From contig NZ_JARUMJ010000001.1 of NCBI RefSeq assembly GCF_036898465.1, positions 1,116,001-1,180,000 on the forward strand: 64,000 nucleotides of DNA. Direction: 5' to 3'. The notes beneath the pieces were generated by a model, which was not told where the DNA came from, made no database searches, and saw nothing but the letters and a program-made list of their open reading frames with translations. Position numbers and translations under genes: made by a program. Position 1 is the stretch's first letter. Each line of letters starts with the position of its first letter. The stretch comes from Streptomyces sp. B21-105 (lineage in GTDB: Bacteria > Actinomycetota > Actinomycetes > Streptomycetales > Streptomycetaceae). Of the stretch, positions 15,447 through 39,986 are shown one piece after another.

Positions 15447-16933
15447 CGGCCTCGCCTCGCACCGCTCGCCCGTCCCTGACGGGGCGTCCGCAGTCCTGCA
15501 GACCTGGCTTTGCTTCCAGGGCTTCTTCGCCGAGGAGCACCCTCGTCGCTCTCGCCGTCCTGGAGCAGGCTGAGGAGATCCTGGGTGTCCGCATCCGCGG
15601 CAGCCAGTACAGCGTCCAGACTTTCCTGCCCTCCGGCGGACGGGTCCTGGTCGTCCTCGGGTGTGGCCCCGGACGGCGCCGGCCCCCACAACAGGTCGTC
15701 GATACCGCGCTCGACCGTCATGGTGGCCAGCTCGCCGAACTGGACGGGCCGTGCTTCCGTGAACAAGTCGGCCTCCTGGCGCAGGTAGTTGGCCCACATG
15801 CGGGTCCAGCCTCGGACCGCCGGATGCCGGTCGAGACGTTTGATCCCCGCCAGGAGCCGGTCGGCGAAAGGGTATTCGGTGTACCCGTCGGTGGTGAAGC
15901 AGTAGTCCGGTTCCAGCTGGCAGTACCAGACACCGTCCAGGCGCCGGAATCTCATGCGCAGTGCAGCGTGGTGGTAGTAGCCGACGCGCTGTGGGTCGGA
16001 CTTCGAGGTGTGCGGACCGAACACGGTCCGGCCGCGTGATCCGGGTCCCTTGCCCGCCTTGCGAGGCCCCAGGTGCGAGGTCGCGCGAAAGTGCATGTGC
16101 TTGCGGTCCTTGTGCCACCGCAGTTCCGGATAGGAGCCCTGAACGGTCCGGGAGAGCAGGTCAGCGAAGCGGTGCTGGGTGTCGAGGTCGTCGCTGTCCG
16201 CCCACTCTCTGGTCTCGTGCCGCTCGGGATCTCCGTCGCAGAGCACCCGCAAAGGCGAGTCCCGCAGGTCGTGGAACGACAGGACCAGGTTGTCCCGCAG
16301 GATCCAGCCGGACTCACGCCGGCCCTGCGTCTCCAGTGCGCCACCGGCCGCGCGGTAGTCAGTGAAGGTCGTCGGGGCCAGATGCACGGTCGGCGGCATC
16401 TCGATGACGGGCAGCAGGTTCGTGGTCAGCACTTCGGTGATCGACGCGGGCCGCAGGTACAGGCCCGTCGTCCGCGGCATCGCCAAGCGCAGCAGTGCCT
16501 GGGCGGCGTCCCGGTCGAAGCGCTGGGTGTGCTTGTCGATGTCCACGCGGCGGGCAGCACGGCTGACCGCGTCCGGGAACGCCGCCTTGACCTCCACCCA
16601 CCACGCCTCATGACTCTCGGGGTGGGAAAAGACCAGGATGACCGGCGAGTTACCGGACAGCCAGTGATCAAGATCGCGCTGGTCGCAGAGATAGTGGAAG
16701 CCGTCGTCCGTCTCGCCAGAGAAACGCCGGTCCTGCGCCTTGCTCTGGACCAGCAGGGTCAGGTTCAGCACGGCGCGGCTGTCGGGGTCGACCAGATCGA
16801 TGTGTCCGTCGATGCCGTGATCGACGCGCCGGGGATGGAAGAGGTGGCCCATCTCCAGGCAGCGTCGCTCGATCAGGGCGATGCCCTTCTCACCGATGAA
16901 CGTCTGGCGCGTCACCGTCTTGCGATCAGCCAT
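15443..16933 (-). CDS. DREN-APAZ effector of short Argonaute (DUF4365 nuclease domain)
   Basis: 496 residues. The ATG at 16933 is preceded by AAGGAGG at ideal distance; the longer frame from GTG 16957 would bury that site. The N-terminal ~170 residues look like DUF4365/DREN, a PD-(D/E)XK-type nuclease: E22, HGIDGHIDLVD (D42, D46) and LVQSKAQ (Q63-x-K65). The remainder (about 180-450) matches the place and size of the APAZ domain that contacts the pAgo. The C-terminal tail is acidic, then basic and low-complexity. In SPARDA, guide/target recognition by the complex unleashes indiscriminate DNA/RNA cleavage and stops phage or plasmid spread. The family assignment is by motif and pairing, with no alignment run. 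Confidence 0.85.
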   Translation of the reverse strand: MADRKTVTRQTFIGEKGIALIERRCLEMGHLFHPRRVDHGIDGHIDLVDPDSRAVLNLTLLVQSKAQDRRFSGETDDGFHYLCDQRDLDHWLSGNSPVILVFSHPESHEAWWVEVKAAFPDAVSRAARRVDIDKHTQRFDRDAAQALLRLAMPRTTGLYLRPASITEVLTTNLLPVIEMPPTVHLAPTTFTDYRAAGGALETQGRRESGWILRDNLVLSFHDLRDSPLRVLCDGDPERHETREWADSDDLDTQHRFADLLSRTVQGSYPELRWHKDRKHMHFRATSHLGPRKAGKGPGSRGRTVFGPHTSKSDPQRVGYYHHAALRMRFRRLDGVWYCQLEPDYCFTTDGYTEYPFADRLLAGIKRLDRHPAVRGWTRMWANYLRQEADLFTEARPVQFGELATMTVERGIDDLLWGPAPSGATPEDDQDPSAGGQESLDAVLAAADADTQDLLSLLQDGESDEGAPRRRSPGSKARSAGLRTPRQGRASGARRGR

Positions 16934-17574
16934 CGCCTCATCCTCCTTGCTGGACACGACCCGTCGGCAAGTAGCCGGCCGAGGTGCTCATTCAGGGTAT
17001 GCGGCACCACTGACAGTCAGGCCCGACCGCATCCAGCGCTCCGCTGACGATCAGGCGTGGCGATGCCTGTGCCAAGACGACTTTCGAGATCGTCACCAAC
17101 GACGAAAGCGAATGAGCGGCACCGGGCTGCACCAACTCGGCGTATCGGCTACTCGAACTTTGGGATGCGATTTCGCAGGTCAGCGACATGGTGAAATTCA
17201 TACACTGAACCCGATTCGACCATCCGCCCACGGGCCTGCCGCCGGAGGCACTCGAACCTCTCTCCACGGCTTACTGCACCCGACTCAGACTCGAAGAGCC
17301 CCCTGGCGCGCGTCGACGCTGGCCAACTCAGCGAGGCGGTGTCGCCCGGGCTGTGCACGGGGAACGCGCTGGTGGTGACGCTGCTGGTGCAGCTCGGGGT
17401 GGTGGCGGTGACGAGGCTGCTGAATCTGCGGCTGCCCCGGTTGGCCAGCTGAGACGCGGATGCTCGGCCGGAACCTGAGCGGGGCAGGTCGCGCTCGGTA
17501 CGGCAGCAGGGCCCGGGCCACGTGTCGCGGTCCGGACCCTGCCCCGTGCGGTGCCGCCCTGCGGTGGCGGTGCG
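16934..17574. other. Intergenic region with no convincing gene
   Basis: No frame shows both a good start site and sustained coding character. A plus-strand stretch ending at 17452 reads GNALVVTLLVQLGVVAVTRL and could be the last segment of a lost membrane protein. The minus strand near 17230-17260 resembles a tRNA T-arm sequence, but no tRNA can be folded around it. The promoter for the DREN-APAZ/pAgo operon must lie in its left part. Confidence 0.4.
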
Positions 17575-18821: not shown

Positions 18822-20636
18822 TCATTCGCCACCCACCACCGTATCCCCGTCGAACCGCAGCAACGTGATCCGCGACTCGCCGACCCACTCCCGAAGGGTG
18901 TCCAGTGCAGCGGGCTCAAGTTTCGTGGTGAAGAGGATGGCCAGATGCTCTCTGGCCCGTGAGCATGCCACGTAGAAGAGGTTGCGTGCCCTGATAAACG
19001 CCTCCAGTTCCTTGTCCATCAGTTCGTCGCGCCGGGAGAAGTTAGCCAGCATCTCGGGGATCTGGAAGCGGGAGTGTCCCTTGCTGACCACGGCGAGAAC
19101 CCGGTTGAACTCCAGTCCCTTGACTCCGTGTTGTGTGGCGAAGGGCGTGCCGCCGCCGAGGTGCTCGCTCAACGCCAGCAACTCCGCGTACGGCACCTGG
19201 CGCAGTTGTTGGTACTCCTTCGACCGCGCCGCCGCCCGGGCTTCGGCCTTATCGTCACTCACAGCCTGCGGGTCGGTGCCGGATAGTGACACGGCCTTCC
19301 GGTGACGCTCGCGCACCTTCCCCAGGCCGTCGAAGAGCTGCTGCTCAAGACAGAGGTCGAGGACGTCGCCGACCGTGCCCGTCTTGCGGGCCTCCCCCAG
19401 TTTCGTCAGGAACGCCATCCATTCCTGCTTGTCGGCCGACGAGTTGATGGGTGGGCGGCCACGGGGGTCGAGTGCGTCGAACATCGCGCCGTAGCGCTTG
19501 TTCCGGTGGTGGAGCAGGGCCGGTTCCAGCGTGTCCATGAAGAAGGCCATGGCGTGGTCCTCCTTCCTCACGTAGGAATCGTTACGCCGAAAGGCCCCGT
19601 GGAGCTTCTGATATCCCAGTTCGCCGGCGATCGTCTCGTGCGTGAGCATGAGGATCTTCGTGCTGGGCTCCTCCGCCCGCCCCTGGGCATCGTGACCGGA
19701 TGCCCCGGTGCTCCATAACCGGTCGCGGACGTCGTCCAGTACCCATTTCCGAGCCGCGTGGGCCGCGTCCCAGCCGAGCTGACCCTTCCGGTGGTGGGTG
19801 AGCCTCGTCCCGGCCCATTCGTTGGTGTGATAGACGGCGACGGTGCCCTCGCCAACTCCTGACGCCATGGTCTGCGTCAATTCGGGACGCATCGTGTTCA
19901 GGAGGTTCACGACGGCGCGCTGCGAGCGCCGATTGCGCCGTCTGAAGACCGGTGTCGGGCGGGCGTCCTCAAGTGCCCCGCACGCGTTGTCGTAGATCTG
20001 CTGCCAATGGTCCCCGAAGAAGCCGCAGAGGGGGCCGCGCGCAGTGGCCTCATCGCCCGGCGTGCCCAGCATGGCCTCCGCCAGACCGGCGGGGGTGTCC
20101 TGGTACTCGTCCACGAAGACGATCGGGAACCGGTCGGCAGCCAGAGCCCGGAACTTGGGAAGGGCGAAAAACGCCCTCGCGAGGACGGGCAGATCGTTGT
20201 GACCCAACTGCACCCGACGGCTGTCGTGGTCCACCTTCTGGAAGCCGGTGCTGTACTCGACGGTGTAGCCGTCCAGTGAGGTGTGGCCCTCCATCTTCGA
20301 CAGCATGAGGTCCAGCTCGACGATGTGGCGCAACAGGTGCTTGCCGAAAGGGGAGAGCAGCTGCCACAGGAAACCATGGATGGTTTCGGCGAACACGTAC
20401 GGGCTGCGGTCGGTACGGCTGATGATCTCGTCGCGGGCGACATTGGTGTAGGTGACGCAGGCGATGCGCTGGTGGGGCCGCGGGAGGTAGCGGGGGCGGT
20501 CAGCCAGGATGCTCTGGAGCGCCTCGATCAGTGAGCTGGTCTTGCCCGCACCGGCACCGGCCTCCACCTTGAAGTGACGGCCCGCTTGGAGAGCCGTCAG
20601 GATCGCGTGCGTGACATCTTCCGCCTCCGTCGTCAC
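18822..20636 (-). CDS. gajB: Gabija helicase GajB (UvrD-like)
   Basis: 604-residue superfamily 1 UvrD/PcrA-type helicase. The GTG at 20636 overlaps the gajA stop (GTGA); upstream in-frame codons lie inside gajA. Motif I is GAGAGKTS (residues 27-34), motif II is FVDEYQDT (about 195), CGFFGDHWQQIYD is motif III, and GVKGLEFNRVLAVVSKGHS with NLFYVACSRAREHLAI are motifs V-VI. In Gabija, GajB works with GajA: it responds to DNA ends or single strands and depletes nucleotides. Directly downstream of gajA. Confidence 0.9.
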   Translation of the reverse strand: MTTEAEDVTHAILTALQAGRHFKVEAGAGAGKTSSLIEALQSILADRPRYLPRPHQRIACVTYTNVARDEIISRTDRSPYVFAETIHGFLWQLLSPFGKHLLRHIVELDLMLSKMEGHTSLDGYTVEYSTGFQKVDHDSRRVQLGHNDLPVLARAFFALPKFRALAADRFPIVFVDEYQDTPAGLAEAMLGTPGDEATARGPLCGFFGDHWQQIYDNACGALEDARPTPVFRRRNRRSQRAVVNLLNTMRPELTQTMASGVGEGTVAVYHTNEWAGTRLTHHRKGQLGWDAAHAARKWVLDDVRDRLWSTGASGHDAQGRAEEPSTKILMLTHETIAGELGYQKLHGAFRRNDSYVRKEDHAMAFFMDTLEPALLHHRNKRYGAMFDALDPRGRPPINSSADKQEWMAFLTKLGEARKTGTVGDVLDLCLEQQLFDGLGKVRERHRKAVSLSGTDPQAVSDDKAEARAAARSKEYQQLRQVPYAELLALSEHLGGGTPFATQHGVKGLEFNRVLAVVSKGHSRFQIPEMLANFSRRDELMDKELEAFIRARNLFYVACSRAREHLAILFTTKLEPAALDTLREWVGESRITLLRFDGDTVVGGE

Positions 20637-22795
20637 TGGACGTCCGCCTTCGTCGCCGTCCCGTCCTGTGCCATGAGCCACTCGAGGCCGCGCCTGATGT
20701 ACTTCGGGACCTGCCAGTCGTGGTCTCCGAGGACATGGTCGAGGGCGAAGTCGACCTTGCTGTGCCTGGTCTCTACGCTGCTACGGGCCTGTTGTTCCAG
20801 TTCCTCGGCGGGAGCGGCACCCGTGGAAATACCGAACAGGGCCCGGTTGGCCAGCGCGAAGGCGTCCTCGAAAGTGCGGCCGCACGGACCGCCGGGCTCC
20901 TCCGGCACCTGGTAGGCGAGGCACATGCTGCCGCCGGCGATCGGCGGGTCCGTCTCGGCCCGCTGCAGCAGCTCGGCCACCGTGATGTCGGACATCTCGG
21001 GGGACCACGCCCTGATGGACTGGTTGGACGTGCGTCCGGATTCGGACACCAGACATTTGCGAATCTTGGGCTCACTGTCGTCGACGGGATCAAGATCCGT
21101 GATGATCAGGGCTGGGATCCCGAGGACCTTCAGCAGCGGATAGAACCTGTGGGCATGCGCCCCGCCGACCTCCATCAAGGTCACGTACTGGTGCTGGGGC
21201 GTCTCTTCGGGCCTCCTCGCCGCCAGCTTCTCCTCCGCAGCCGGGACGAAGATACGCTCGCTGGCGCCCTCGACGAGGATGGCCTTGTCCGCGAAGTAGA
21301 GGTCGGCCCGGGTGAGGGTCAGGTACTTGCGGAGGAACCTCTCGTCGCCGGTCACCTGGGACAGGTCCTTGATGACGGTGCGAGCCGGCCCCGGCTCGCT
21401 TCCGCTCTCCACGGTGTCCTCCTCCTTCCGGAAGTACCGGATGTCGGAGAAGTGTCCCCGGTTGGCCACGTGTGCCGAGTGGGTGGTCACCACGAACTGA
21501 GCGTTCCACCGGGGGCTGCTGTCGATTGCGGTGCTGCTCTCCTCGACCGCTCCCTTTTGCCCGGGCATCGTCGCTCTCATCTGCGCGTCGATCCGAGGGA
21601 ACAGATTGACGGAGTACGTGAGTCGCTGGATGAACGCCTCCTGCATCTGCGGATGCAGATGGGCCTCCGGTTCCTCCAGGAAGACGAGATGGATCCCCGA
21701 CTCCGGAGAGGTCGCCGTGTGATCGCGGTAGCAGGTGAAGAGCCTGAGCAGAATCATCACCAAGTTCCGCGTACCGAGGCCGTTGTACGACTCCGGGAAC
21801 CGCACACCGGCCACTCCCGGATAGTGAATGCGCGCGAAGTTCCTGAGCAGCCTCTTGGAGTCCAGCCGGGCGGCCGTGACGAACTCCTGGTTGGCCAGAC
21901 CTGGATAGCCGAATGCCTTCAACGTCGGCGCCACCCGTTCGCGGACCTTCTGGAGGCTGCAGTCGAGACTGCCGGAGGTGTCCACGAGTGTCCTGTCGAT
22001 GTTCGCGGCGAGCTCCTCCAGCCACGTCGCGTTCTGACTCTTCTCCGCCGCGGTCAGCAGTTGCTCGAAGACCGCTCCGATTGGTGCGGCATGCCCGTCG
22101 CTCTCGTCGTCCAGCCCTCGCTGCGCCTCGACGAAGTCCACCCTCACCAGGGTGCGCACATCCGCGAGGTCGACCGGTCGGACGTTCGCCTCATCGGTCG
22201 GGTCGACCGCCATCACCGACATCTCGAAGTGCTTCGGGATACCTCTGCCCAGCTGCTCAAGCGTGGCCGTGGCATCCGGCCCCGCCGGCACGCCGCCGAA
22301 GAACTCCTTCAGGGCACCGTCCCCCAACGCGAAGGCGAACCTGATCACCACCTCGGAGCAGTCGGGGTCAAGGTCCACCACGAAGGGGGCCAGGGGTCCG
22401 TACTGGCCGCAGTCCTTGTCGTAGGAGATGTGGAGGGTGAGGGTGATTGCCGGAACCGTGTCGCGCGCCTGCTCCGCCTCACCCGAGGCGAAGAGGCGAT
22501 GGGCGGCGAGGAACTCCTCGTAGCAGTCGGCGGAGAAGTCCTCGATGCGCAGCGCGGCCTTCTTCCTCGCCACGAAGAATTCGAACAGTTTTGCCAGCGA
22601 GGTCTTTCCCGTGTTGTTGCGGCCGACGCACAGTGTCACCTTGTCCGTGAAGGAAAGCTCGGTTCTGCGGAGCAGCCGGAAGTTGCGGATGACCGCCTTG
22701 GTGAGCCGGGGCGGCACCGGGACTACGGTCCCGTGTGGTTCGGCGGAGCCGTCTCGCGGGCCTGGGATGGCACGCGGATCACTGGGCTGGGTCAT
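20633..22795 (-). CDS. gajA: Gabija OLD-family nuclease GajA (ATPase-TOPRIM)
   Basis: 720 residues, longer than the ~580 of the Bacillus prototype. The ATG at 22795 has AAGGAG seven bases upstream; the frame extends to 22885 without a better site. Order: ABC-type ATPase with Walker A VGRNNTGKTSLAK (about 57-70), Walker B LVFLEEPEAHLHP, H-loop TTHSAH, then TOPRIM with AILVEGASERIF (metal-binding E) and ALIITDLDPVDD (DxD). GajA is a sequence-specific nicking endonuclease held off by nucleotides. The extra length seems to be insertions in the ATPase part and a ~130-residue C-terminal tail. Confidence 0.9.
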   Translation of the reverse strand: MTQPSDPRAIPGPRDGSAEPHGTVVPVPPRLTKAVIRNFRLLRRTELSFTDKVTLCVGRNNTGKTSLAKLFEFFVARKKAALRIEDFSADCYEEFLAAHRLFASGEAEQARDTVPAITLTLHISYDKDCGQYGPLAPFVVDLDPDCSEVVIRFAFALGDGALKEFFGGVPAGPDATATLEQLGRGIPKHFEMSVMAVDPTDEANVRPVDLADVRTLVRVDFVEAQRGLDDESDGHAAPIGAVFEQLLTAAEKSQNATWLEELAANIDRTLVDTSGSLDCSLQKVRERVAPTLKAFGYPGLANQEFVTAARLDSKRLLRNFARIHYPGVAGVRFPESYNGLGTRNLVMILLRLFTCYRDHTATSPESGIHLVFLEEPEAHLHPQMQEAFIQRLTYSVNLFPRIDAQMRATMPGQKGAVEESSTAIDSSPRWNAQFVVTTHSAHVANRGHFSDIRYFRKEEDTVESGSEPGPARTVIKDLSQVTGDERFLRKYLTLTRADLYFADKAILVEGASERIFVPAAEEKLAARRPEETPQHQYVTLMEVGGAHAHRFYPLLKVLGIPALIITDLDPVDDSEPKIRKCLVSESGRTSNQSIRAWSPEMSDITVAELLQRAETDPPIAGGSMCLAYQVPEEPGGPCGRTFEDAFALANRALFGISTGAAPAEELEQQARSSVETRHSKVDFALDHVLGDHDWQVPKYIRRGLEWLMAQDGTATKADVQ

Positions 22796-23125
22796 CGCGG
22801 CTCCTTGCTGCGCTCGTACACACCCTGGGACGCCCGGCGGGAACACACAGCAGGGGAAGCCACAAGCCCCATGAGATGCCGTCACCCCCTCAGGATCTGG
22901 AGCCGCATCTTGTCACCATAATTCTCTAAATGCACAGCGGTCGCATTTGATTCAGTTTCGGTCGCCTATCGATCTGAATTCACTCCCGAATGTTCGACAT
23001 ACGGCACCCGTGCGGCCACCACCTCATATGCCGACGGACCGGGTGAGGGATGGCCATGTACGAGGCGCACAGCCTGACCGGTGCTCAGCGAAGGCGTTGC
23101 GCCAGGAGCGGTGAATGGGTCCGCA
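22796..23125. promoter_or_regulatory. AT-rich intergenic region upstream of gajA
   Basis: 330 bases between gajA and the HExxH gene, both on the minus strand. The part 22,910-23,000 is distinctly AT-rich for this genome (for example ATAATTCTCTAAATGC) and is the likely gajA promoter. No defined -10/-35 pair or operator is clear enough to call. Confidence 0.4.
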
Positions 23126-29802: not shown

Positions 29803-30132
29803 ATGACCAGCGTTTACACGGAACTCACGAAGGAAGCCGGACGCCGTGGTGGCCCCGCCGCTCTACGCGCCTTCTACCGGTTGCAGGGCGTAGCACAGGG
29901 CGTCGCCCGCGGCCGGCTGGAGGGCTTTGCGGAGGGCGTCGCTCTCGGCCGATGGAAGGGCCGAACGGAGGGCGTCATCATCGGCGCCGCCGCCACCGGC
30001 TTCGGCGTCATCGGAGCCGTGGTCCACGAGAAGAGGCGCGTCCGCCGCGCCAGTGCCGAGACCGCGCCGACGACCATGCCGGAGGAGGACACCACCGGTG
30101 TGCCGGCGCCGGAGCAGAGGACCGACGCGTGA
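29803..30132 (+). CDS. Small hypothetical protein with Gly-rich repeats
   Basis: 109 residues, ATG at 29803 with GAGG upstream. The middle has three imperfect ~8-residue repeats (GVARGRLEG, GVALGRWKG, GVIIGAAAT) leading into a hydrophobic stretch GVIIGAAATGFGVIGAVV that may be a membrane helix. The C-terminus is charged then Pro/Thr-rich. The layout resembles small phage- or plasmid-borne membrane proteins. No family recognised. Confidence 0.5.
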   Translation: MTSVYTELTKEAGRRGGPAALRAFYRLQGVAQGVARGRLEGFAEGVALGRWKGRTEGVIIGAAATGFGVIGAVVHEKRRVRRASAETAPTTMPEEDTTGVPAPEQRTDA

Positions 30133-30339
30133 ACGACTACGCCCCGGTGGCCTGATCCTTCCGGGGCTCACGATGGTGGAGCTCACCGCCCGCCTGATGT
30201 TCATCCCTCTCGGGTACGGCCTGAACGTGGCCGCATGTGGCCGGCCTGGGCGTTGAGGGCCGAGCGGGTGTGGGGAGTACACACTCCGCACGGGATTGCG
30301 TCTTCCGGCACCAACCGCTATCTAAGGGCGCGCAGAGAA

Positions 30340-30640
30340 TTAACATGCTGGTTTGATCTTCCTTGGCTGCTGATTGCCGTACCTGTCGAGGCGGGCAGCG
30401 ACGTCTGCGGGTGTGCGGAATCTGGCTGTTGACGGCGGGACCGCGGGGCCAGACTCGGCGAGGAGGGGCTGCACTTCCTGGATAGCGCGGGTGAGGGTGC
30501 TTCCGGTGACGCCGAAGAGCTGGGCGAGCAGGCCGTGGGTACCGATTTTGCGCAGGTAGAGCACGGTGGCCAGGATCCGATCGGCTTCGGAGAGCTTGTC
30601 CTTGGCGCCCGCGCCGCGTGCCGGCGGCGTTCGCCGCCCC
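30340..30640 (-). pseudogene. ISAzo13-like transposase N-terminal remnant
   Basis: The minus strand encodes LYLRKIGTHGLLAQLFGVTG, STLTRAIQEVQPLL, PPSTARFRTPADVAARL. This is the helix-turn-helix that opens transposases of the ISAzo13-like group. The frame is not linked to any DDE domain here. It abuts a truncated unknown gene, so the transposon remnant and that gene were probably joined by deletion. Confidence 0.6.
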
Positions 30641-30649
30641 GTCGCTCGT

Positions 30650-31153
30650 GGCGGAATCGCTCGCGCTGTTCGGCCAGTGCAGGGATCGAGTTGCGGTAGC
30701 CCAGTTGAGCGCGGCCCGCAGTGTTTCGGAGGGGGCGACCATCGCCTCCACCGGCATGCTCAGAAGGACCTCTGGCGCCGCCAGTTCCTGGTCGGTCAAC
30801 CTTGCGGGACCTTCCGTCGGCACGTCTCCATCGGGCCACGATGAGGCCAATGCCCGAATGGCAAGATCGGCGTACCGCAATCCCACCTCGACGTATTCGG
30901 AGATCCCGAACCCCAGCTCGGGCACCAGTACCGAATCCGTCGCCTGAGCCACCGTCTTCCACCGCGTGACGTCGGCCAGTCGCCTCTCCACCTGGCCGGG
31001 AGCCAGCCGCAGTACCTCATCACCGAGCCGTGTGAGCACGACCTGACGGGGATCGGACGGAACGAAATCCTCCAGTCCAGCCAGCCAGGGCGCTTCCCGG
31101 CGGCATGCGTCCTGTAGCCGGCCCAAGAAACTATGCGCACGGCCGGACTCCAA
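30650..31153 (-). pseudogene. Truncated gene of unknown function
   Basis: A minus-strand frame reads WLAGLEDFVPSDPRQVVLTR, LGDEVLRLAPGQVERRLADV, DSVLVPELGFGISEYVEVGL and APEVLLSMPVEAMVAPSE with normal coding bias, then breaks at about 30650 where transposase sequence begins. The apparent start near 31153 lies at the junction with the zinc-finger fragment on the other strand, so the 5' end is probably also lost. No family recognised. Confidence 0.45.
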
Positions 31154-31659
31154 CCGCTGGAACCCTACCCGGGCAGCCGGACGCCGTGGCGGTGCCGCTG
31201 CACCACGTGCGGTTGGGAAACCAGCCCCACCTACTCCAACGACAACAGCGGGTCGAAGGGCTGCCGGTTCTGTGCCCTCAACTCGGCAACCGACGAGCGT
31301 GCGTCTGCCGAAATGCGAGCGGCCGGGTTCGAGCCGCTGGAGCCGTACCCCGGCCGTACCACGGACCGTTGGCGCAGCCGCTGTTCCTGCGGAAACGAGG
31401 TCATGGCGCGCCTGTCATCCGTCCGGCCGGAACCACCGGCTGCAAGAAGTGCCCCCGATCCGGTGGCCGAACCGATCCCGCGGCAGCCGCCGCGGAGGCA
31501 CGCGCCGCCGGGTTCGAGCCGTTGGAGCCCTATCCGGGGAAGACCACCGACCGGTGGCGCTGCCGCTGCAGGTGCAGCACGGCCATCCCCCTCACCCTGA
31601 CCAGCATCAGAGGAGGCCGTACCGCGTACGGAACGTGCTCCCGAGACACGGCACGATAA
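31133..31659 (+). pseudogene. Broken gene with three treble-clef-like zinc-binding repeats
   Basis: Three copies of a ~55-residue repeat are visible: AGLQPLEPYPGSRTPWRCRC, AAGFEPLEPYPGRTTDRWRS and AAGFEPLEPYPGKTTDRWRC. Each is followed by a Cys pair (CTTCGW, CSCGN, CRCST) and a second Cys pair (CRFCA, CKKCP). A frameshift near 31,410-31,440 separates repeat two from repeat three. Such Cys-x2-Cys repeats bind zinc and probably nucleic acid. The 5' end is at the junction with the truncated minus-strand gene. Confidence 0.55.
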
Positions 31660-31826
31660 CCGTCAGTCACGATGCACGCCGCCGCTGACACGGAGTAGTC
31701 GAGCAAGCCGGGGTCCCGTCGCACGAACCTTCTTTAGGAGATCGCTGCCGCCTGACGGCATCCTGTGTATCGCCCCCCCTTTAAAGATGCGTTCGGCGGA
31801 CCACGAGCGCCTCGGCGTCCAACGAT

Positions 31827-32606
31827 GTGGCCGACTTCCTGTCGACTGTGATCCACCACCAGCTGACAAGGACAGGCCGCACAGTCTTGAATGGCGTCGT
31901 GGCCACACCGATACCCATGCCCCCGCGCCCGCCCGCCACCCCGGAGACGATCGCGGGTAGCGCTGCGCTGGACGAAGTCCTGGCGTGTCTACGCGCACGG
32001 CGGCCGGTGTTCCACTCCGAGGCCGATCTCCAGCACAGTTTCGCCCTCGCGGTAGGCGAGGTCGCACCGGAGGTCAGGTGCCGTCTCGAAGTCCCGGTAC
32101 GCGGGAACGATGCCTCGGAGTACCTGGACCTACTGTGCCTTGGACCCGCGGGCCGTACGGCAATAGAGTTCAAGTATGTGACCCGACAGTGGTCGGGTAC
32201 AGCAGGGATCCCTCCCGAGGAGTACGACTTGCGCGGACACAACGCGCCGGACGTCGCGCGTAGGGAATTCCTGCGGGATGTAGGAAGGCTGGAACGCTTT
32301 TGCGACCGCGAGGACCAGAACGGGCTGGCCCTGCTCATCACAAACGAGGCGGCCCTGTGGCGCCCCAGGCAACGCAGGATGCCCACCAGGGACGAGGAGT
32401 TCCGCCTCCACCACGGCCGCGAACTGAGCGGCACCTTGCTGTGGGCCGACGGTTCCTTCCCGGACAACACCCGAGTGCTGCGGGGTGCCTACATGCTCGC
32501 CTGGCGTCCATACACCCAGCTGGAGGGCCCAAGTAGCGAGTTCCGCTGCCTCGCAGTGTTCATCACTCCGAACCCAGCGAGGCCCCAGCCGTCAGACGAC
32601 GCGTAA
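31827..32606 (+). CDS. PD-(D/E)XK-type nuclease-like protein
   Basis: Up to 259 residues; the GTG at 31827 lacks a good ribosome site, so the start may be a little later. The fold signature is clear: helix FHSEADLQHSFALAVGE (E65), strand YLDLLCLGPAG (D101), then TAIEFKYVTR (E114-F-K116). A downstream helix-rich region (LRDVGRLERFCDREDQNGLA) and a beta strand LALLITNEAALW complete a restriction-endonuclease-like core. It stands alone. It may be a stand-alone effector nuclease whose partner was lost to the neighbouring deletions. Confidence 0.65.
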   Translation: MADFLSTVIHHQLTRTGRTVLNGVVATPIPMPPRPPATPETIAGSAALDEVLACLRARRPVFHSEADLQHSFALAVGEVAPEVRCRLEVPVRGNDASEYLDLLCLGPAGRTAIEFKYVTRQWSGTAGIPPEEYDLRGHNAPDVARREFLRDVGRLERFCDREDQNGLALLITNEAALWRPRQRRMPTRDEEFRLHHGRELSGTLLWADGSFPDNTRVLRGAYMLAWRPYTQLEGPSSEFRCLAVFITPNPARPQPSDDA

Positions 32607-33274
32607 CCAGTAGCCTGCCTCGCATGTCGTTGACCATGGGAACCTGCCATGGGGGAAGCATTAGACCGCCCATTTCAGGGTCCGTCAGAGTTGGATCTCA
32701 AACCTGTTCACGACGGTGAACCTCATGCTCAGGCCGTGGGCGCGGAGATCGCGATTATCCGCACCGACGAGGCGTACGACCGGGTCCAGGCCAACGACGT
32801 CCGCTACCGCTTCGTGATCGACACGGCCACCGTCTGGCCGGCCACCAGAAGTCACGGATAGGTACAGCGGGCCTTGGCTAGCGGCGGAAACAGTCAGTTG
32901 GTTCTTTGCCTCCCGTGCCTCGGTTCGTGTGCGCGGCCACTGAGAAGCGCCGTTCGTGGGGTCCATCCCTGCGCGTAGATGGATGGACCCCCGCCTCTCG
33001 TCAAGGACGGCTAGTGCCCGAAGCTGCTCCGCGTGAGTGGGAGGTGAAACCGGGGATCGGAACAGGACGGCCAATGCACCAAGCCCCGCCGAACCAGCCA
33101 CGCGTGCGGGCCAGTTCCGGGGCCCACCGTGGATCTCCGCCCGCCGGTCGGCCAGCACCCGCGGCGCGCCACCCTGCTGCGCCCACAGGGCCTCCAGGCG
33201 GGCCACCTCTCCCGCCCTCCCGGCCCAAGGGCCGAGGAGCCGGCTCGAAGCAGGCAGGACTCAACGGTGCTGGC
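32607..33274. other. Intergenic region, no supported gene
   Basis: About 670 bases with overlapping open frames on both strands but no good start site or recognisable motif. A plus-strand run near 32,690-32,860 (EIAIIRTDEAYDRVQANDVR) has coding-like composition and might be a gene fragment; it has no homologue that I recognise. Confidence 0.3.
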
Positions 33275-34675
33275 CTATCGGCGGTTGTCGCCAATGAGTT
33301 CGAGGTAGCGGGCATAGTAGACGTCAGATTTTTCCCGATTCCGGATCAGGGTGCCCTCCTCCACCCGGTAGGTGCGGTCCGGATCACCTTTGAAGGAGAG
33401 CCAGTTGAAGGAGGTGGTCACCCAGGCATCGTCGAAGAGGAGGATCTTGGCATGGTTGCTCTTGAGGCGCGCCACGTGCAGCTTCTCGGGGTATCGCGCA
33501 GCGAGGTTGTTCAGCCTTCTGATGGCATTCGGGTCGGTCCTATTCTCGCTGTCGTCATAGCCGTAAGCGATGTCCACCTTCACGCCACGCTGCAGCCGGC
33601 GTTCCAGTTTGCCGACGAACGCCGTGGTGACGATCGCGCCGGTGATCCACGGCGAGATGATCAGGATGCGTTTCCGGGCGCTGGTGAGGGCTTCGTCGAG
33701 GAGCTCCGGGTGCTCGAAGACACCGATTGCGCGGATCTCCTCTGCCTGCGACTCTAGGGCCTTCGGCTTTGCGGGGAGGGGTAGGGGTGCCGGGGAGTTG
33801 AGCTGGACGGCGGCCTGCTCTGCGCGCTTTTGGGTGACCTCCTGCAGGGGGATCCGGGCCTCTTCGATGTCGGGTTCCAGCAGGGGGCGCTCAGGCTCGC
33901 GCTCTACGTTGATGCCGAGGCCCTTGGCGCCGCCGAGGCCGATCAGTTCGATCTCGTGGCGGTCGCTCAGTTCGCCATCGATGACGACACCGAGCTCGAT
34001 GTCCACGCGTTCAGCGTCCGCGTAGACGAGGAGCTTGACCGGCAGGACGTGACGGGTCCGGGTCTGCACGATGCTTTTTACCTGCAGGACTTCGCGGGTG
34101 GTGGTGCCGTTCTCCTGAAGGAGGGTAGTGATCTCCTCGGCGGTCACCTCGCCGTCCTCGACTGGACCGGACCGCGCGGCAGGCAGCATGATCATTCCGG
34201 CTTCGGTGGCCACGTCCCGGGAGATGGTGCTGCGGCGGCTGTAGGGGGAGGCCCGCCATAGCATCTGATCGAAGACGAGGGACTGGCTGACCCGGACCGG
34301 AACGATGGCAGCCGCCTTCGTCGCGGTGAAGCGGCCCTTCTCGGTCAGGCGTAGCCGCGGAACGGGCGCTGTGCCGGGCACGGGAGCGGTCCAGCGCAAG
34401 TCGTCTGAGCCGAAGAGGACCGCTACGGTCTGGTTGACCATGGCGACGTCCAGGCCGAGGAACCCGGCGATGGATTCCGGTGCCCTCTCCCCTTGGTCGA
34501 CCAGCCGCAGGACGTACTCCTCCAGCAGGGGGATGTCCTTGCTGTCCTGGGCGAGGACCTCGGCGGTGATGCGGGCGACGGGCAGGGCCGCGTCGACGAT
34601 GCCGACGAGGTCGAAGCCGGTGCGGGCATTTCCGAAGCGGACGGCCAGCAGGCTGTCCTCACTGAACGTTGGCAT
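33275..34675 (-). CDS. PLD-family (HKD) nuclease partner of kinase-helicase
   Basis: 466 residues from ATG 34675, overlapping the helicase gene by 17 bases; GTG 34687 is an alternative start. The N-terminal ~150 residues look like a winged-helix-type region (EKGRFTATKAAAIVPVRVS). The C-terminal third is a PLD domain: ILIISPWITGAIVTTAFVGK, then HVARLKSNHAKILLFDDAWV (H-x-K-x4-D near residue 405) and TTSFNWLSFKGD. One HKD per chain means an active dimer, as in bacterial PLD nucleases. Tight overlap with a superfamily 1 helicase points to joint DNA or RNA degradation. Confidence 0.75.
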   Translation of the reverse strand: MPTFSEDSLLAVRFGNARTGFDLVGIVDAALPVARITAEVLAQDSKDIPLLEEYVLRLVDQGERAPESIAGFLGLDVAMVNQTVAVLFGSDDLRWTAPVPGTAPVPRLRLTEKGRFTATKAAAIVPVRVSQSLVFDQMLWRASPYSRRSTISRDVATEAGMIMLPAARSGPVEDGEVTAEEITTLLQENGTTTREVLQVKSIVQTRTRHVLPVKLLVYADAERVDIELGVVIDGELSDRHEIELIGLGGAKGLGINVEREPERPLLEPDIEEARIPLQEVTQKRAEQAAVQLNSPAPLPLPAKPKALESQAEEIRAIGVFEHPELLDEALTSARKRILIISPWITGAIVTTAFVGKLERRLQRGVKVDIAYGYDDSENRTDPNAIRRLNNLAARYPEKLHVARLKSNHAKILLFDDAWVTTSFNWLSFKGDPDRTYRVEEGTLIRNREKSDVYYARYLELIGDNRR

Positions 34676-37600
34676 CGCGGATCTCACAGTCTTCCGGGTG
34701 GCTGCTCATGTAGTCGAGGACGTTGCGCAGGGCGCCGGGTTTGCTGCGGCAGAAGCCGGCGTCCCCGACGATGATCAGCCCGAACCGGGCGCGGGAGAGG
34801 GCGACGTTGATGCGCCGCCAGTAGGGCTGCCCCAGGAACCCGAACCGGCCGTCGGAGTTGCTGCGGGTGACGCAGAAGACCGCGAGGTCGCACTCGCGGC
34901 CCTGCACGGCATCGACGGAGAGCACCTCGGGCGTGAAGTGCCTCAGCTTCTTCTTGGCCAGCTGCTTCTTGAGCGTCTCGACCTGACGGCCGTAGGGCGC
35001 GATGACCAGAACCTCCAGGGGCTTGCCGCCGGGCGGCTGGACCGCCCCCTTCCCGATCGCGTAGTCGATGACCTCCAGACGCTTCTCCGCGATCTGGGCC
35101 TCAAGCCGGTTGGAGACGCTGGTCTCGGTGCCGGACCGCTCCGTCTCACGCCGCCCCGGATGAAAGCTGGTGTCCATCCAGAGCACAGGCCGGTTGATGC
35201 CCCCGTACCCCGGCAGCTCGTGCGGATTGGGAGAGAGCAGCTCGTTGTCGTAGAAGCAGCTGCTGATCATGTTGCCGATGGCGGGCGTCATCCGGTACTG
35301 CTCGCGCAGCAGGTGCTTAACCGGCGGCTGTGCATTGTCCACCAGGTGCTGGAACAGCGTCGTCTGCACGATCTCCGGGGTCAGCTGGTGATCTTCCATG
35401 GCCTTGCCGTTGCGCAGCAGGTCCTCGTCGATCGGCGGAAGCTGCCTGGTGTCCCCCACCAGCACCCACCGCTTCGCGCGCGCCAGCGGGACCAGTGCCT
35501 CGGTCGCGGTCGCTTTCGACGCCTCGTCGAAGATGCACAGGTCGAAGTCCAGGGCACGTGCCGCCGGATGCCCCAGGAAGCCCAGGGCTGTGCCGCCCAC
35601 CACGTTCCGGGTCCGCAGGAAACTGGCGATCAGGTGCGGGTCGCTGCCGATCCGCTTGAGCCATTCGCCCTGCAAGCGCAGCAGCCGCATGAGGTCCTGT
35701 CCGGGACCAGCTGCCGGAAACAGGGCCTCGACGGCGTCCCGGCACTCCCGCGCGGTCATGGCCTCGCGCAGGGTGAGGTCACCGTCCAGGGCACTCTGGA
35801 TCTCGGCGACCAGGGCCGTTCGCTGTTCGAGGAGCGTCTCCCGGCGGGCGCCGACGGTGACCGCTTCCTCTCCCAGTTCCCGCGCGGAGGTGGTGCGGTC
35901 GGGCAAAGGCTGAGCGGTCAGTTCCACGAGCCGGCCCTCGACGTGCGCGAGGTCGGTGGCGACGGCGGCCGCCTCCTCCAGCAAGAGGGCCGCCTTCAGG
36001 TGCCGTGTCTCCAGCTTCTGTCGGATCGCGACCGCTTCTAGATGCCTCTCCGCCCGGGCCCGAACACTCTGCGTCCACCTCTTGACCTGCCGGTCCAACA
36101 GCAGCGATTGCGCGGCGGGATCGATGCGCGGATCGTCCGGGCGCCCCAGACGCACCAGACCGTCGATACCCGCCTCCTCCAGACGGCGCAGCGCGTTGTC
36201 GATGGCGATGTGGGTCTGGCTGACGATGAGAATTCGTGCGTCCGGCTTGCGGCTGAGGGTCTGCTCGACGATCTCCGCGATCACCGTGGTCTTACCGGTG
36301 CCAGGCGGGCCCTCGACCAGCACTAGGTCCTGCGTCCCCAGCGCGCTCACGACGACATCCCGTTTGCTCTGGTCGAGGTCGGCGCGGACCCAGGAGGTGA
36401 CCTCGACCGGAGGCAGGACCGGCATCTCCTGCGGATTCTCGATGATCTTGCCCAAATGGGGGTTACTGCTCTGCTCGGCGGCGACCGTGGATAGCGCGTC
36501 GCGCTGCCGGTTGATGGCGCTCTGGCTGGGGCCGAGGAAGGGCAGCAAGTAACCGCAGCGCGGCAGCGCCGTCTTGGCACGAGTCATCCGGAGCTGGACG
36601 GTGTCCTCGGTCCGACTGGTGACGACCCCCCGGTCGATGGGCCGACTGTAGGGGTACTCCACGACCGACCACTCGTCGCCGATCTCCATCACCGTTTCGG
36701 TGGCGCCCAGGCTGAAGGACCGCGTGTACGAGGTGCCCTCCGTTCTGTCGTAGGCGACGGGCTGCCGCCCGTTCGCCGCGATCTCCTCGCGGGCTTCCAG
36801 GACGTGCCGCCAGCCATCGAAGAGGTCCCCGAGATTCTGCCGCCGGTCTTCGCGGCCCTTCTCCTCGCGGGCCTCGACATGCGTGTTGAGGGCCGCCAGC
36901 AGCACGTTCAGGCCGCGGTTGGCCGGGTCCTCGCCCGGATCGTAGAAGCTCCAGCTCAGAATCGGATCAAGCTTGAGTGCAGAATCCCGGCGCTTCGCCA
37001 ACCATTCCTCCGGCCGCTCTTCTGCGGACACGATGACGCACCGGTCGGAGTTATTGTCGTCGCCGACCATGCGCAGGAACAGCTTCCGACCGAAGACCCG
37101 CACCGTCCCGGTGTCGACCTCCTTCGTGGCCGGGTTCCAGCCGTAGTCGACATGCACCGTGCCCGATATATCGGACATCACCTCTGACTTGGCGCGCGCC
37201 ATGACCTGGTCGAGGCTCAGTTCCTCCCCCTCCGGCACGGTGACGAGTTTCTCTGCGGCGCTCTTGGTCATCTTCAGCCACACCGAGTTGCGCTGCCGCG
37301 CGTCACGGTTGCCGCAACGTCGCTCCGCCTCCAGCAGTTGGTGCTCCAGCACGATGGCGTTGGCTGGCCTCTTCTGCGGTTCGAGGTCGATGCAGGACTT
37401 CAGAATCGCGCGGACATCGGTGTCCATCTCTAGCTCGTCCAGCGCGGACAGCAGTCCGGGGTAGTCGCGGGCCTTGCTGTTGGACAGGACCTGGATGGCC
37501 AGGACGGCGTACGCGTAGACGTCCCTGACCCAGCCGACGCTGCTCTTCTCCAACGGCTTGTACAGGCTGGAACCGTAGTCAGCGACCGTGTGGTCCGTCG

Positions 37601-38126
37601 CGGGCGCCGCCGCCGTCTCCACGACCTTGGCGATCCCGAAGTCGGCGAGCTTGACCGTGCCATCACTGGTCAAGAGGACGTTTCCGGGCTTGATGTCCCT
37701 GTGCTCCACCCGCTGCTCGTGAGCGTAGGCGAGAGCAGATGCCAACGGCCGCCCGATCCGAGCGAAGTAGGCCGGCCAGTCCAGCGGACGGCCCCCGCTC
37801 ATCTCGTCCTTCAGACTCCTGTCGACCCACTCCAGGACGATGAAGTACTGCTCGAGTCCTTCGTCCCAGCCCGAATCCAGCATCCGCACGATGTTCGGAT
37901 GGGTCAGCGCCCGCAACGAGGCGGTCTCACGGTCGAGGAAGATCCGCGTGCTCTCCTCGTCGTCGCGCCGCTTGAGCAGCTTCACCGCCGCGTACGCGCC
38001 CTCCGGGCTCAAGACATCCACTGCCTTGCGCACCTCGGACATACCGCCCTGGCGCTTCTCCGCCTGCGGCAGCAGATGAAACCGGCCGTTGATCATGCCA
38101 GTCACACGCGGCTCCTCATCCATCAA
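34659..38126 (-). CDS. Ser/Thr protein kinase fused to UPF1-like superfamily 1 helicase
   Basis: 1155 residues, start at 38126 (a second ATG follows immediately). The N-terminal kinase is complete: AAVKLLKRR (K49), EHRDIKPGNVLL (HRD 142-144) and LADFGIAKVVE (DFG 162-164). A linker of ~300 residues follows. Helicase core: VEGPPGTGKTTVIAEIVEQT (about 600), SQTHIAIDNALRRL, LCIFDEASKATATEAL (DEAS, about 862), LVGDTRQLPPID, EQYRMTPAIGNMIS, SVDAVQGRECDLAVF and INVALSRARFGLIIVGD (motifs II-VI of UPF1/AAA_12). There is no kinase-side membrane segment, so the protein is cytoplasmic. The kinase could gate the helicase or its PLD partner by phosphorylation (inference). Confidence 0.85.
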   Translation of the reverse strand: MMDEEPRVTGMINGRFHLLPQAEKRQGGMSEVRKAVDVLSPEGAYAAVKLLKRRDDEESTRIFLDRETASLRALTHPNIVRMLDSGWDEGLEQYFIVLEWVDRSLKDEMSGGRPLDWPAYFARIGRPLASALAYAHEQRVEHRDIKPGNVLLTSDGTVKLADFGIAKVVETAAAPATDHTVADYGSSLYKPLEKSSVGWVRDVYAYAVLAIQVLSNSKARDYPGLLSALDELEMDTDVRAILKSCIDLEPQKRPANAIVLEHQLLEAERRCGNRDARQRNSVWLKMTKSAAEKLVTVPEGEELSLDQVMARAKSEVMSDISGTVHVDYGWNPATKEVDTGTVRVFGRKLFLRMVGDDNNSDRCVIVSAEERPEEWLAKRRDSALKLDPILSWSFYDPGEDPANRGLNVLLAALNTHVEAREEKGREDRRQNLGDLFDGWRHVLEAREEIAANGRQPVAYDRTEGTSYTRSFSLGATETVMEIGDEWSVVEYPYSRPIDRGVVTSRTEDTVQLRMTRAKTALPRCGYLLPFLGPSQSAINRQRDALSTVAAEQSSNPHLGKIIENPQEMPVLPPVEVTSWVRADLDQSKRDVVVSALGTQDLVLVEGPPGTGKTTVIAEIVEQTLSRKPDARILIVSQTHIAIDNALRRLEEAGIDGLVRLGRPDDPRIDPAAQSLLLDRQVKRWTQSVRARAERHLEAVAIRQKLETRHLKAALLLEEAAAVATDLAHVEGRLVELTAQPLPDRTTSARELGEEAVTVGARRETLLEQRTALVAEIQSALDGDLTLREAMTARECRDAVEALFPAAGPGQDLMRLLRLQGEWLKRIGSDPHLIASFLRTRNVVGGTALGFLGHPAARALDFDLCIFDEASKATATEALVPLARAKRWVLVGDTRQLPPIDEDLLRNGKAMEDHQLTPEIVQTTLFQHLVDNAQPPVKHLLREQYRMTPAIGNMISSCFYDNELLSPNPHELPGYGGINRPVLWMDTSFHPGRRETERSGTETSVSNRLEAQIAEKRLEVIDYAIGKGAVQPPGGKPLEVLVIAPYGRQVETLKKQLAKKKLRHFTPEVLSVDAVQGRECDLAVFCVTRSNSDGRFGFLGQPYWRRINVALSRARFGLIIVGDAGFCRSKPGALRNVLDYMSSHPEDCEIRDANVQ

Positions 38127-38497
38127 CTATTTTTCGCCTTCGCGTCCTTGAGCATCCTTTCAGGAGATCATCACCCCCGGTTTGACTTCGTCCATCCCGG
38201 AGCACGCGCGAGCCGCGCCCACTGGTTCCTCCCGAACGAGCGAAATCCCAGAAAGGACCACGTCGCACGACATGCGACGACCGAGCTCAGAAGCAGACTG
38301 ATGTGCGGCTGCGGGGTACTCACCAACCGCTCGCCTACCTGGCAGACTTACGCTTCGACATCGCCCTCTTCGACTGCTGTGGATTGGGTGCGGCCGACGC
38401 GTAACTGCCTTCAGGTAGCCTGCCGGAGAGGGCGCCAGAGGCCGACGCCCTTCCAAAGCTCATCCATGTCATGGGGGCTCGGCGGGCAGGTCTCCGG
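38127..38497. other. Intergenic region upstream of the kinase-helicase gene
   Basis: About 370 bases between the kinase-helicase gene and the IS701 element. The stretch 38,125-38,170 contains an AT-rich patch (AACTATTTTTCGCC) that may belong to the promoter. No gene, hairpin or repeat is convincing. Confidence 0.35.
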
Positions 38498-38501
38498 TTA
38501 G

Positions 38502-39921
38502 TACTCCAGCTGTAGATCGTGATCTTCATGTCTGGGATGCGGCTTGTCGCCGGTAGTGACTGGTGCGTGATCGTGCCTGGTGACGGCGGCGCCAGTCGGA
38601 CCAGGCGAGCCGGTGGGCCGTGTCGCGGACGGGCCGGACGGCGAGCGCGATGAACAGGCGGCAGATCTCGTTGCAGGACAGCGGGATCAGGTCCTCCGGC
38701 GTGGGTCGGTGTGCGTGTTCGTCGGCGCGGACGACGGCGAGGAAGGCGTGGGCCAGCATCGCGAGGGTGACCCAGCGGGCCCACGAGGGGTAGCGGCGGA
38801 CCTGGTGCTCGTCCAGCCCTGCCAGTCCCTTTTCGGTTTGGAAGGTCTCCTCCACCCGCCATCTGGAACCTGCGACCTTGACCAGGGTGGCCAGGGAGGC
38901 CGGCGTGGTGGAGTGACAGCGGTAATAGGCGAGTTCACCGGTGCTGCGGTTGCGGCGGATCAGCAGCTGGTGGCGGCCCGGGGCTGCCTCGGCGAGGTCG
39001 ATGACGGCCCAGTCATACAACCGCTGCCCCTTCGCGCCGCGCCCGGCCGAGAGCTTCTGCCAGGCCCGCTTCGGCACCTTCCTCGCCAGGGCATCAGCGC
39101 GGAACCTGCCTGCTCCGGTGGGCACTTCGGCCGAGCAGGCCACCGCGAGGACATAGCCGATGCCGCGTTCCTCCAGAGCCGCACGGAGTCTTGGGTTGCC
39201 GCCGTAGACCTCGTCCCCGGTGACCCAGCCCACGTGGTGTCCGGCGTTAAGGAACCGTTCGATCATCATGCGGGCCAGTTCCGGCTTGGTCGCGAAGACG
39301 GTGTCCTCGCCGAGCCCCGCCGTCCGGCAGCGGTCCGGGTCGCACGTCCAGGAGCGCGGGATGTACAGCTCCCGGTCCACCGCCGCGTGCCCACGCATCC
39401 CGGCGTAGACGAGGTAGACCGCGACCTGGGAGTTCTCGATCCGCCCGGCCGTTCCGGTGTACTGGCGCTGGACCCCGACCGTGCGGGTGCCCTTCTTCAC
39501 ATCGCCGGTCTCGTCGACCACCAGCACCGCGGCCTCGTCATAGAGGTGCTCGACGACGTATTCGCGCACGTCATCACGGACGGCGTCGGCATCCCAGGAG
39601 GCCCGGCACAGCAGATGCTGCATGCCGTGCGGGCTGGCCTCCCCGGCCCACTCCGCGATCGTCCAGCAGTTCTTCCTCGGCAGGTCCGACAACAGGCCCA
39701 GCACCAACCGCCCGGCCCGCAGCCGTGGTTCGACCCGTGTGAACCGGCCCGCGATCCGGCCCATGGCCACCTCGAACGCCTCCCGCCAACGGACGGGATC
39801 TATGCTGTGACCTGCGGCCACCGTCTCATCGTTACTCCACACAAGTCACGATGATCAACGGTGGCCGCACCCGTCTCCGCACCGGCCTCCACCAGCAAGA
39901 TCACGATCTACAGCTGGAGTA
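38502..39921 (-). mobile_element. Complete IS701-family insertion sequence
   Basis: 1420 bases with a 25-base perfect terminal inverted repeat (38502-38526 and 39897-39921; outer end TACTCCAGCTGTAGATCG). It is flanked by a 4-base direct repeat TTAG at 38498-38501 and 39922-39925, the YTAR-type target typical of IS701. Intact transposase and ends suggest recent insertion, between the kinase-helicase locus and a TnpB remnant. Confidence 0.93.
38526..39842 (-). CDS. IS701-family transposase
   Basis: 438 residues. It has the IS701 hallmarks: GRFTRVEPRLRAGRLVLGLL at the N-terminus, catalytic AAVLVVDETGDVKKGTRTVG, GHHVGWVTGDEVYGGNPRLR and RWRVEETFQTEKGLAGLDEH, the D-D-E residues in order. Start ATG 39842, close to the right inverted repeat. 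No frameshift. Confidence 0.93.
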   Translation of the reverse strand: MWSNDETVAAGHSIDPVRWREAFEVAMGRIAGRFTRVEPRLRAGRLVLGLLSDLPRKNCWTIAEWAGEASPHGMQHLLCRASWDADAVRDDVREYVVEHLYDEAAVLVVDETGDVKKGTRTVGVQRQYTGTAGRIENSQVAVYLVYAGMRGHAAVDRELYIPRSWTCDPDRCRTAGLGEDTVFATKPELARMMIERFLNAGHHVGWVTGDEVYGGNPRLRAALEERGIGYVLAVACSAEVPTGAGRFRADALARKVPKRAWQKLSAGRGAKGQRLYDWAVIDLAEAAPGRHQLLIRRNRSTGELAYYRCHSTTPASLATLVKVAGSRWRVEETFQTEKGLAGLDEHQVRRYPSWARWVTLAMLAHAFLAVVRADEHAHRPTPEDLIPLSCNEICRLFIALAVRPVRDTAHRLAWSDWRRRHQARSRTSHYRRQAASQT

Positions 39922-39986
39922 TTAGGCAGCCTCAGCGCGTTAACAAGCATCTTGGACGGTGTCGCGTACAGAGCGGCCAAGTCAGG

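Follow-up and report, generated by a model that had tools for sequence, protein, structure and literature searches.

The founding paper of Mokosh type I, an anti-phage system, is said to be that of Millman et al. from 2022. As given in the available part of PMC11672841, type I is defined by a gene that joins a serine/threonine kinase (STK) to a COG1112/UPF1-like helicase, with a phospholipase D (PLD) nuclease in the adjacent gene; a review table additionally assigns a NERD domain to type I (PMC10952713, available in part), which is absent from that definition. The present analysis concerns a 64,000-nucleotide stretch of Streptomyces sp. B21-105 (contig NZ_JARUMJ010000001.1, positions 1,116,001 to 1,180,000 of the forward strand), referred to here as the window, and within it a pair of reverse-strand genes, mkoA and mkoB, at 33275..38126. 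Judging from sequence, this pair represents, with a probability of roughly 95%, an intact Mokosh type I system for defence against phages, located in a defence island of Streptomyces.

Both genes match PADLOC models for the system. The MkoA model (PDLC03920) is matched at E 1.5e-235 and 783 bits, with residues 11-1152 on profile positions 6-1109 of 1112, and the MkoB model (PDLC03922) at E 5.9e-76 and 255 bits, with the best stretch, residues 28-410, on positions 3-394 of 610. The kinase-helicase gene carries Pkinase, AAA_11 and AAA_12 domains, as judged by Pfam and PADLOC rather than by COG1112, and the separate PLD gene combines its MkoB match with a PLDc_2 domain, an HKD motif and a Nuc/NucT fold. 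The two genes lie on the same strand, overlap by 17 to 29 bases, and stay together in 99 of 111 loci. Feature for feature, the predicted proteins of the window pair fit the type I definition.

The original prediction had taken the pair for an uncharacterised system. That it represents a new, so far nameless two-gene defence system is now very unlikely. No Mokosh model appears among the best 25 of 29 NCBIfam rows for MkoA or in either of the two rows for MkoB, and the three closest plasmid records label the matched features as hypothetical protein or AAA domain-containing protein, but the strong matches to the MkoA and MkoB models, the named gene order and the named domains all speak against novelty, and the candidate was rejected because both PADLOC models match. 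A match to a system already named in a library of defence-system hidden Markov models had been put forward in advance as the outcome that would tell against the prediction, and this is what the comparison returned. A paper search found no paper joining kinase, UPF1-like helicase, PLD and defence. Ultimately, the underlying observation is confirmed and the inference of a defence role, resting on a conserved unit in a defence setting, is supported, but the claim of novelty fails. For the window, the outcome is chiefly one of annotation: what seemed a new cluster is already known as Mokosh type I.

The mkoA gene (34659..38126, reverse strand, as are all features of the pair) is an open reading frame (ORF) of 1155 amino acids that encodes a fusion of a Ser/Thr kinase with a UPF1/IGHMBP2-like superfamily 1 (SF1) helicase, identified by Pfam and the PADLOC MkoA model. 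The ORF opens at TTG 38126, and GTG 38105 is probably the better fit as a start, because it is preceded by GAGGAG at 38117-38112. The protein kinase domain (37338..38051) corresponds to a Pfam Pkinase match over residues 26-263 (whole-protein E 5.7e-26) with its motifs intact, namely K49, HRD at 142-144 and DFG at 162-164. The first RecA-like helicase domain (35433..36377) matches AAA_11 over residues 584-898 (E 1.9e-34) and retains the Walker A sequence GPPGTGKT at 606-613 and DEAS at 867-870, while the second (34758..35366) matches AAA_12 over residues 921-1123 (E 1.9e-38); all three matches are over the Pfam cut-off. The complete kinase and complete UPF1-like helicase first noted in this chain are thus borne out by intact domains and motifs.

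An AlphaFold2 model of MkoA, built from an alignment of 32 sequences with a mean predicted local distance difference test score (pLDDT) of 86.1, resembles PknB-type kinases and IGHMBP2/UPF1/SETX helicases in Foldseek. In this model, the kinase and helicase are linked by a small alpha/beta region at about 281-393, a long helix at 399-452 and a run of strands at 457-529, and a large helical insertion (670-838) lies within the first RecA-like domain. Set against the anatomy of UPF1, the linker elements and the insertion would correspond to the stalk, 1B and 1C regions found in helicases of the UPF1 type.

The mkoB gene (33275..34687) is an ORF of 470 amino acids encoding a nuclease of the PLD family that probably contains a winged helix, as indicated by Pfam and the PADLOC MkoB model. 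Its probable start is ATG 34675, from which the overlap with mkoA is the 17 bases originally reported; from the farthest in-frame start, GTG 34687, it is 29 bases. The overlap measures 14 or 17 bases in many close relatives and is larger or smaller in others. Both mkoA and mkoB show the guanine-cytosine pattern across codon positions that is expected of real genes, and both proteins have full-length relatives. A pseudogene was rejected in view of the open frames, the intact motifs and an identical copy in genome G166, and a fusion artefact or chance ORF in view of relatives that are 72-73% identical over the full length.

The PLD nuclease domain of MkoB (33401..33694) is recognized by Pfam as PLDc_2 over residues 332-429 (E 4.7e-7; 30.2 bits, cut-off 27). 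The single HKD site first described for this gene is present: MkoB has only one HxKxxxxD motif, HAKILLFD, at residues 412-419 (33431-33454). With an AlphaFold2 model built from 34 aligned sequences (mean pLDDT 90.7), Foldseek ranks Nuc (1byr) best; a phospholipase D, TrmBL2 and NucT (rank 5) come next, and mouse Zucchini is at rank 23. Nuc is a PLD nuclease with a single HKD that dimerises to form one active site. The N-terminal region of MkoB probably holds a winged helix (34334..34540, limits approximate), because weak profile matches (E 1e-3 to 1e-2) link it to MarR-type regulators in the PDB, the model places helices and strands there, and TrmBL2 is among the Foldseek matches.

The pair is conserved as a unit, as had been proposed. 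In 67 of 76 loci selected by MkoB, in 31 of 34 selected by MkoA and in the window itself, MkoB directly follows MkoA in the same orientation, which gives the total of 99; a pair was called wherever the two genes share a strand at a gap of -200 to +400. The MkoB-selected loci come from a profile scan of species genomes, in which the best 80 of 131 relatives correspond to 76 distinct loci, and the MkoA-selected loci are the 13 best (E 8.5e-194 or better) plus 21 from a Streptomyces sample; weaker helicase matches (E 7.8e-111 and worse) lie outside the count. Some genomes are counted twice, and the profiles were built from 14, 9 and 5 of the counted loci. Of the 12 loci that fail the rule, some do so with both genes present, owing to an over-long ORF start (L064, L076, L087, L130, L134), and in others MkoB lies near a contig end (L101, L113, L114).

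Four further loci are of a different kind. L090 and L110 have no MkoA ORF above the limits applied, L122 has an MkoA ORF of 833 amino acids about 1 kilobase from MkoB, and in L142 (genome G438) the gap is about 1.2 kilobases. All four are possible broken copies of Mokosh.

The best 80 of the 131 MkoB relatives belong mostly to Streptomyces and other actinobacteria, then to cyanobacteria, proteobacteria and one acidobacterium, the phylum labels being presumed from the record titles. At E 1e-120 or better, the MkoA model is found in 32 of 392 Streptomyces genomes, at 33 loci that include both loci of the window type and those of a sister clade discussed below; two candidates were scored per genome, so these counts may be low. 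In addition, 25 plasmid records contain a MkoB match, 10 of which cover at least 80% of MkoB, and no MkoB match occurs at E 1e-5 among 50,697 phage records.

This distribution bears on whether the pair might instead be a host RNA-decay or regulatory module, with a winged-helix PLD protein and a UPF1-like helicase acting on cellular RNA rather than in defence. The UPF1-type fold and the probable winged helix would accord with such a role. Around relatives, the neighbours tested were 113 proteins of 250-900 amino acids from 28 loci, with at most five per locus; 31 loci had entered, L123-L125 were left out, and L118 and L119 were incomplete. At E 1e-30, these neighbours include one member each of GajA, GajB, a CBASS cyclase, effector and TRIP13, SAVED proteins, PycC, RmrA, PDC-S02 and Orf5. 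Each of the best 25 of 93 defence families matched only 1 of the 113 neighbours, and the test was made without a control; therefore no enrichment near defence genes is claimed, and the neighbourhoods of relatives do not prove a defence role. However, the patchy spread across Streptomyces, the presence on plasmids, and the known defence genes in the window all argue against a host module, and Mokosh is treated as an antiviral system in the available parts of PMC11291487 and PMC11672841. A host function is accordingly improbable, and Mokosh type I is retained as the reading of the pair.

Defence genes are plentiful in the left half of the window, which holds DISARM, Gabija and a gene of the type encoding a restriction endonuclease (REase) associated with prokaryotic Argonaute (pAgo). 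DISARM is represented by PADLOC matches to DrmMI (1-3120, truncated at the beginning of the window), DrmA (3117-6866) and DrmB (6839-8896), and by DrmC (8769-9623, E 2.1e-120). A DUF4365 protein on the reverse strand (15443-16957) matches the PADLOC models for pAgo-associated REases at E 8.9e-151, and no short pAgo partner turned up in the subset of neighbouring ORFs covered by the scan. Gabija follows with GajB (18822-20681) and GajA (20633-22885), both from PADLOC.

The proximity of DISARM, together with a weak match of MkoB to DrmC (E 3.1e-6), might suggest that the pair is a decayed or accessory DISARM fragment made of a DrmC-like PLD protein and a helicase. Against this, the window carries a separate DrmC beside DrmA, DrmB and DrmMI, none of the best 25 of 60 PADLOC rows for MkoA is a DISARM protein, and the pair is found in actinobacteria, cyanobacteria and proteobacteria. 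A fragment of this kind is hardly credible, and it was rejected because the DISARM genes stand apart and include a DrmC themselves.

Closer to the Mokosh pair, an ORF of 259 amino acids on the forward strand (31827-32606) has no Pfam or PADLOC match; it contains a D...ExK-like stretch, LDLLCLGPAGRTAIEFKY, which we take to resemble the motif of PD-(D/E)xK nucleases. On the other side, about 375 base pairs upstream of the mkoA ORF, lies an IS701-family element on the reverse strand (38499-39924), with a transposase at 38526-39842 (NF033540, E 2.2e-123) and terminal inverted repeats of 28 nucleotides (38499-38526 and 39897-39924) that are 96% complementary. Genome G166 lacks this element: its locus (L141) is 100% identical to the window over 29876-38501 and resumes at 39922 (98% over 602 bases), with a 4-base overlap. 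The element thus appears to be a recent insertion and might affect the expression of mkoA and mkoB. To the right of it, the scanned ORFs with Pfam matches are ordinary genes, encoding a GDSL lipase, a molybdopterin oxidoreductase, a two-component pair, a LysR regulator, an FAA hydrolase, an FAD-binding oxidoreductase, an amidohydrolase, a glyoxalase and a glycosyl hydrolase of family 59.

The MkoA model scores highest on a sister clade, which differs from the clade of the window. This clade comprises 19 Streptomyces loci (L037, L038, L039, L046, L049, L126-L136, L138, L145 and L146). Among the 33 Streptomyces loci, 14 have intact kinase motifs, and all 14 also have the HKD motif. The other 19 have no recognisable HRD or DFG, 17 by substitution and two (L145, L146) because they are unaligned over the kinase; where the kinases diverge most, the MAFFT alignment may have put residues in the wrong column. 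HKD was not found in the best MkoB-like ORF of 18 of the 19 sister-clade loci, among them L136, whose partner is cut by a contig end. The helicase Walker A motif is intact in all 33. This provides a testable hint: the catalytic residues of the kinase and the PLD domain are mostly kept or lost together, and the helicase Walker A is kept in each of the 33 Streptomyces loci.

The wider set of pairs was counted in the same way, the 99 pairs reducing to 89 unique ones, with a window-type MkoB in 72 and a divergent MkoB in 17. The divergent MkoB is homologous to that of the window (hhalign probability 98.7, E 2e-16). Both HRD and HKD are present in 68 of the window-type pairs, with HRD only in two and HKD only in two. 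L095 and L107 lack HRD because their MkoA ORF is short, and L091 lacks HKD because its MkoB ORF has 306 amino acids; HKD is missing from L118 for no apparent reason. Neither motif is seen in 16 of the divergent pairs, and one (L132) has HKD only.

In a midpoint-rooted helicase tree of the 19 decayed and 70 other loci, from which L095 and L107 were left out for want of a Walker A, the two groups fall on the two sides of the root, with a support of 1.0 for the 19. The kinase may therefore have decayed once in the sister clade, whereas loss of HKD appears to have occurred repeatedly, since L132, which bears HKD, is nested among the decayed loci. The PLD-like partner in L132 (8230-11523, forward strand), beside a decayed kinase, carries two HKDs (HAKLVVAD and HAKAIVWD). 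Their retention suggests that the long form of MkoB ancestrally had two active PLD domains.

Neighbouring genes in the sister clade were inspected in L037, L038, L046 and L049. WD40 proteins whose weak AAA_16 match falls short of the Pfam cut-off, described here as STAND-like, lie beside the decayed pair in L037 and L038, an LCAT/PGAP1-like hydrolase in L038, and GHKL-ATPase proteins in L038 and L049. Five such neighbours of the WD40, LCAT/PGAP1-like or GHKL-ATPase kind (L037:11611-15639, L038:11742-15890, L038:15945-17381, L038:2402-4792 and L049:2234-4591) have no PADLOC match at E 1e-3.

A tentative reading, which we hold to be possible and somewhat doubtful, is that the sister clade is a Mokosh-like system that has lost its kinase and PLD sites and kept its helicase ATPase, so that it would act as a sensor or scaffold instead of a nuclease machine, in some cases with STAND-like WD40 and GHKL-ATPase genes. 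If this were true, current models would lump two differently working systems together as type I, and the joint loss would show that the purpose of the kinase is control of the nuclease. That 19 of the loci found by the MkoA model in the Streptomyces sample lack a recognisable kinase site, against 14 that have one, is itself a warning. Catalytically disrupted kinases occur in other actinobacterial conflict systems (Kaur et al., 2020, PMC7159879, available in part), and a dead kinase in such a setting is therefore nothing new as such; no paper recognisable as treating decayed Mokosh was found in the one literature collection covered, most of it judged from catalogue entries.

For the intact pair, a mechanism can be proposed with about an even chance of being right, the 95% given above applying to the identification as Mokosh type I and not to each step. 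MkoA, as an SF1 helicase like UPF1 and IGHMBP2, would load on RNA of the phage or on single-stranded nucleic acid that arises in the course of infection, with MkoB held alongside and perhaps contacting nucleic acid through its winged helix. With the helicase on its target, phosphorylation of MkoA or MkoB by the kinase domain would follow, and the PLD domain of MkoB would then cut the bound nucleic acid, probably with two single-HKD subunits per active site. It is reasonable to model the pair as a helicase-nuclease machine under the control of a kinase, and the shared presence and loss of the kinase and nuclease sites hints at a kinase that controls the nuclease. The available part of a secondary source holds that Mokosh degrades viral transcripts (PMC11291487), and a 2026 review, in the part available, still lists the mechanism as unknown (PMC12926258).

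Several points weigh against the identification and the mechanism. The MkoB match ends at profile position 394 of 610, so the window MkoB is shorter than the PADLOC model, and no NERD domain appears among the best 25 of 31 Pfam families for the window MkoA. The comparison was made with the PADLOC models only, and the identification is a prediction from sequence. The joint decay of kinase and nuclease rests on one branch for the loss of the kinase rather than on many independent events, and is therefore a hint and not proof. The predicted substrate may be either RNA or DNA.

Compared with described systems, the pair comes closest to Mokosh type I, with both PADLOC models matched in the same gene order. 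It differs in the length of MkoB, 470 amino acids against the 610 positions of the model, and on a second MkoA model of 1607 positions the best stretch of the window protein begins only at residue 417. In its helicase and PLD parts, the MkoC model of Mokosh type II is homologous, matching MkoA (E 2.5e-28) as well as MkoB (E 2e-16); however, type II is one protein combining helicase and PLD domain, whereas the window has two separate ORFs and an added kinase. DISARM has a PLD-family protein in common with the pair through the weak DrmC likeness of MkoB, but the window helicase has no DISARM match among the PADLOC rows considered above, and the DrmA, DrmB, DrmC and methyltransferase genes form a separate set at 1-9623 that does not include the pair. 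The eukaryotic proteins UPF1/IGHMBP2 and Zucchini/MitoPLD are alike in helicase fold and PLD-domain fold, respectively, and the likeness is one of fold alone.

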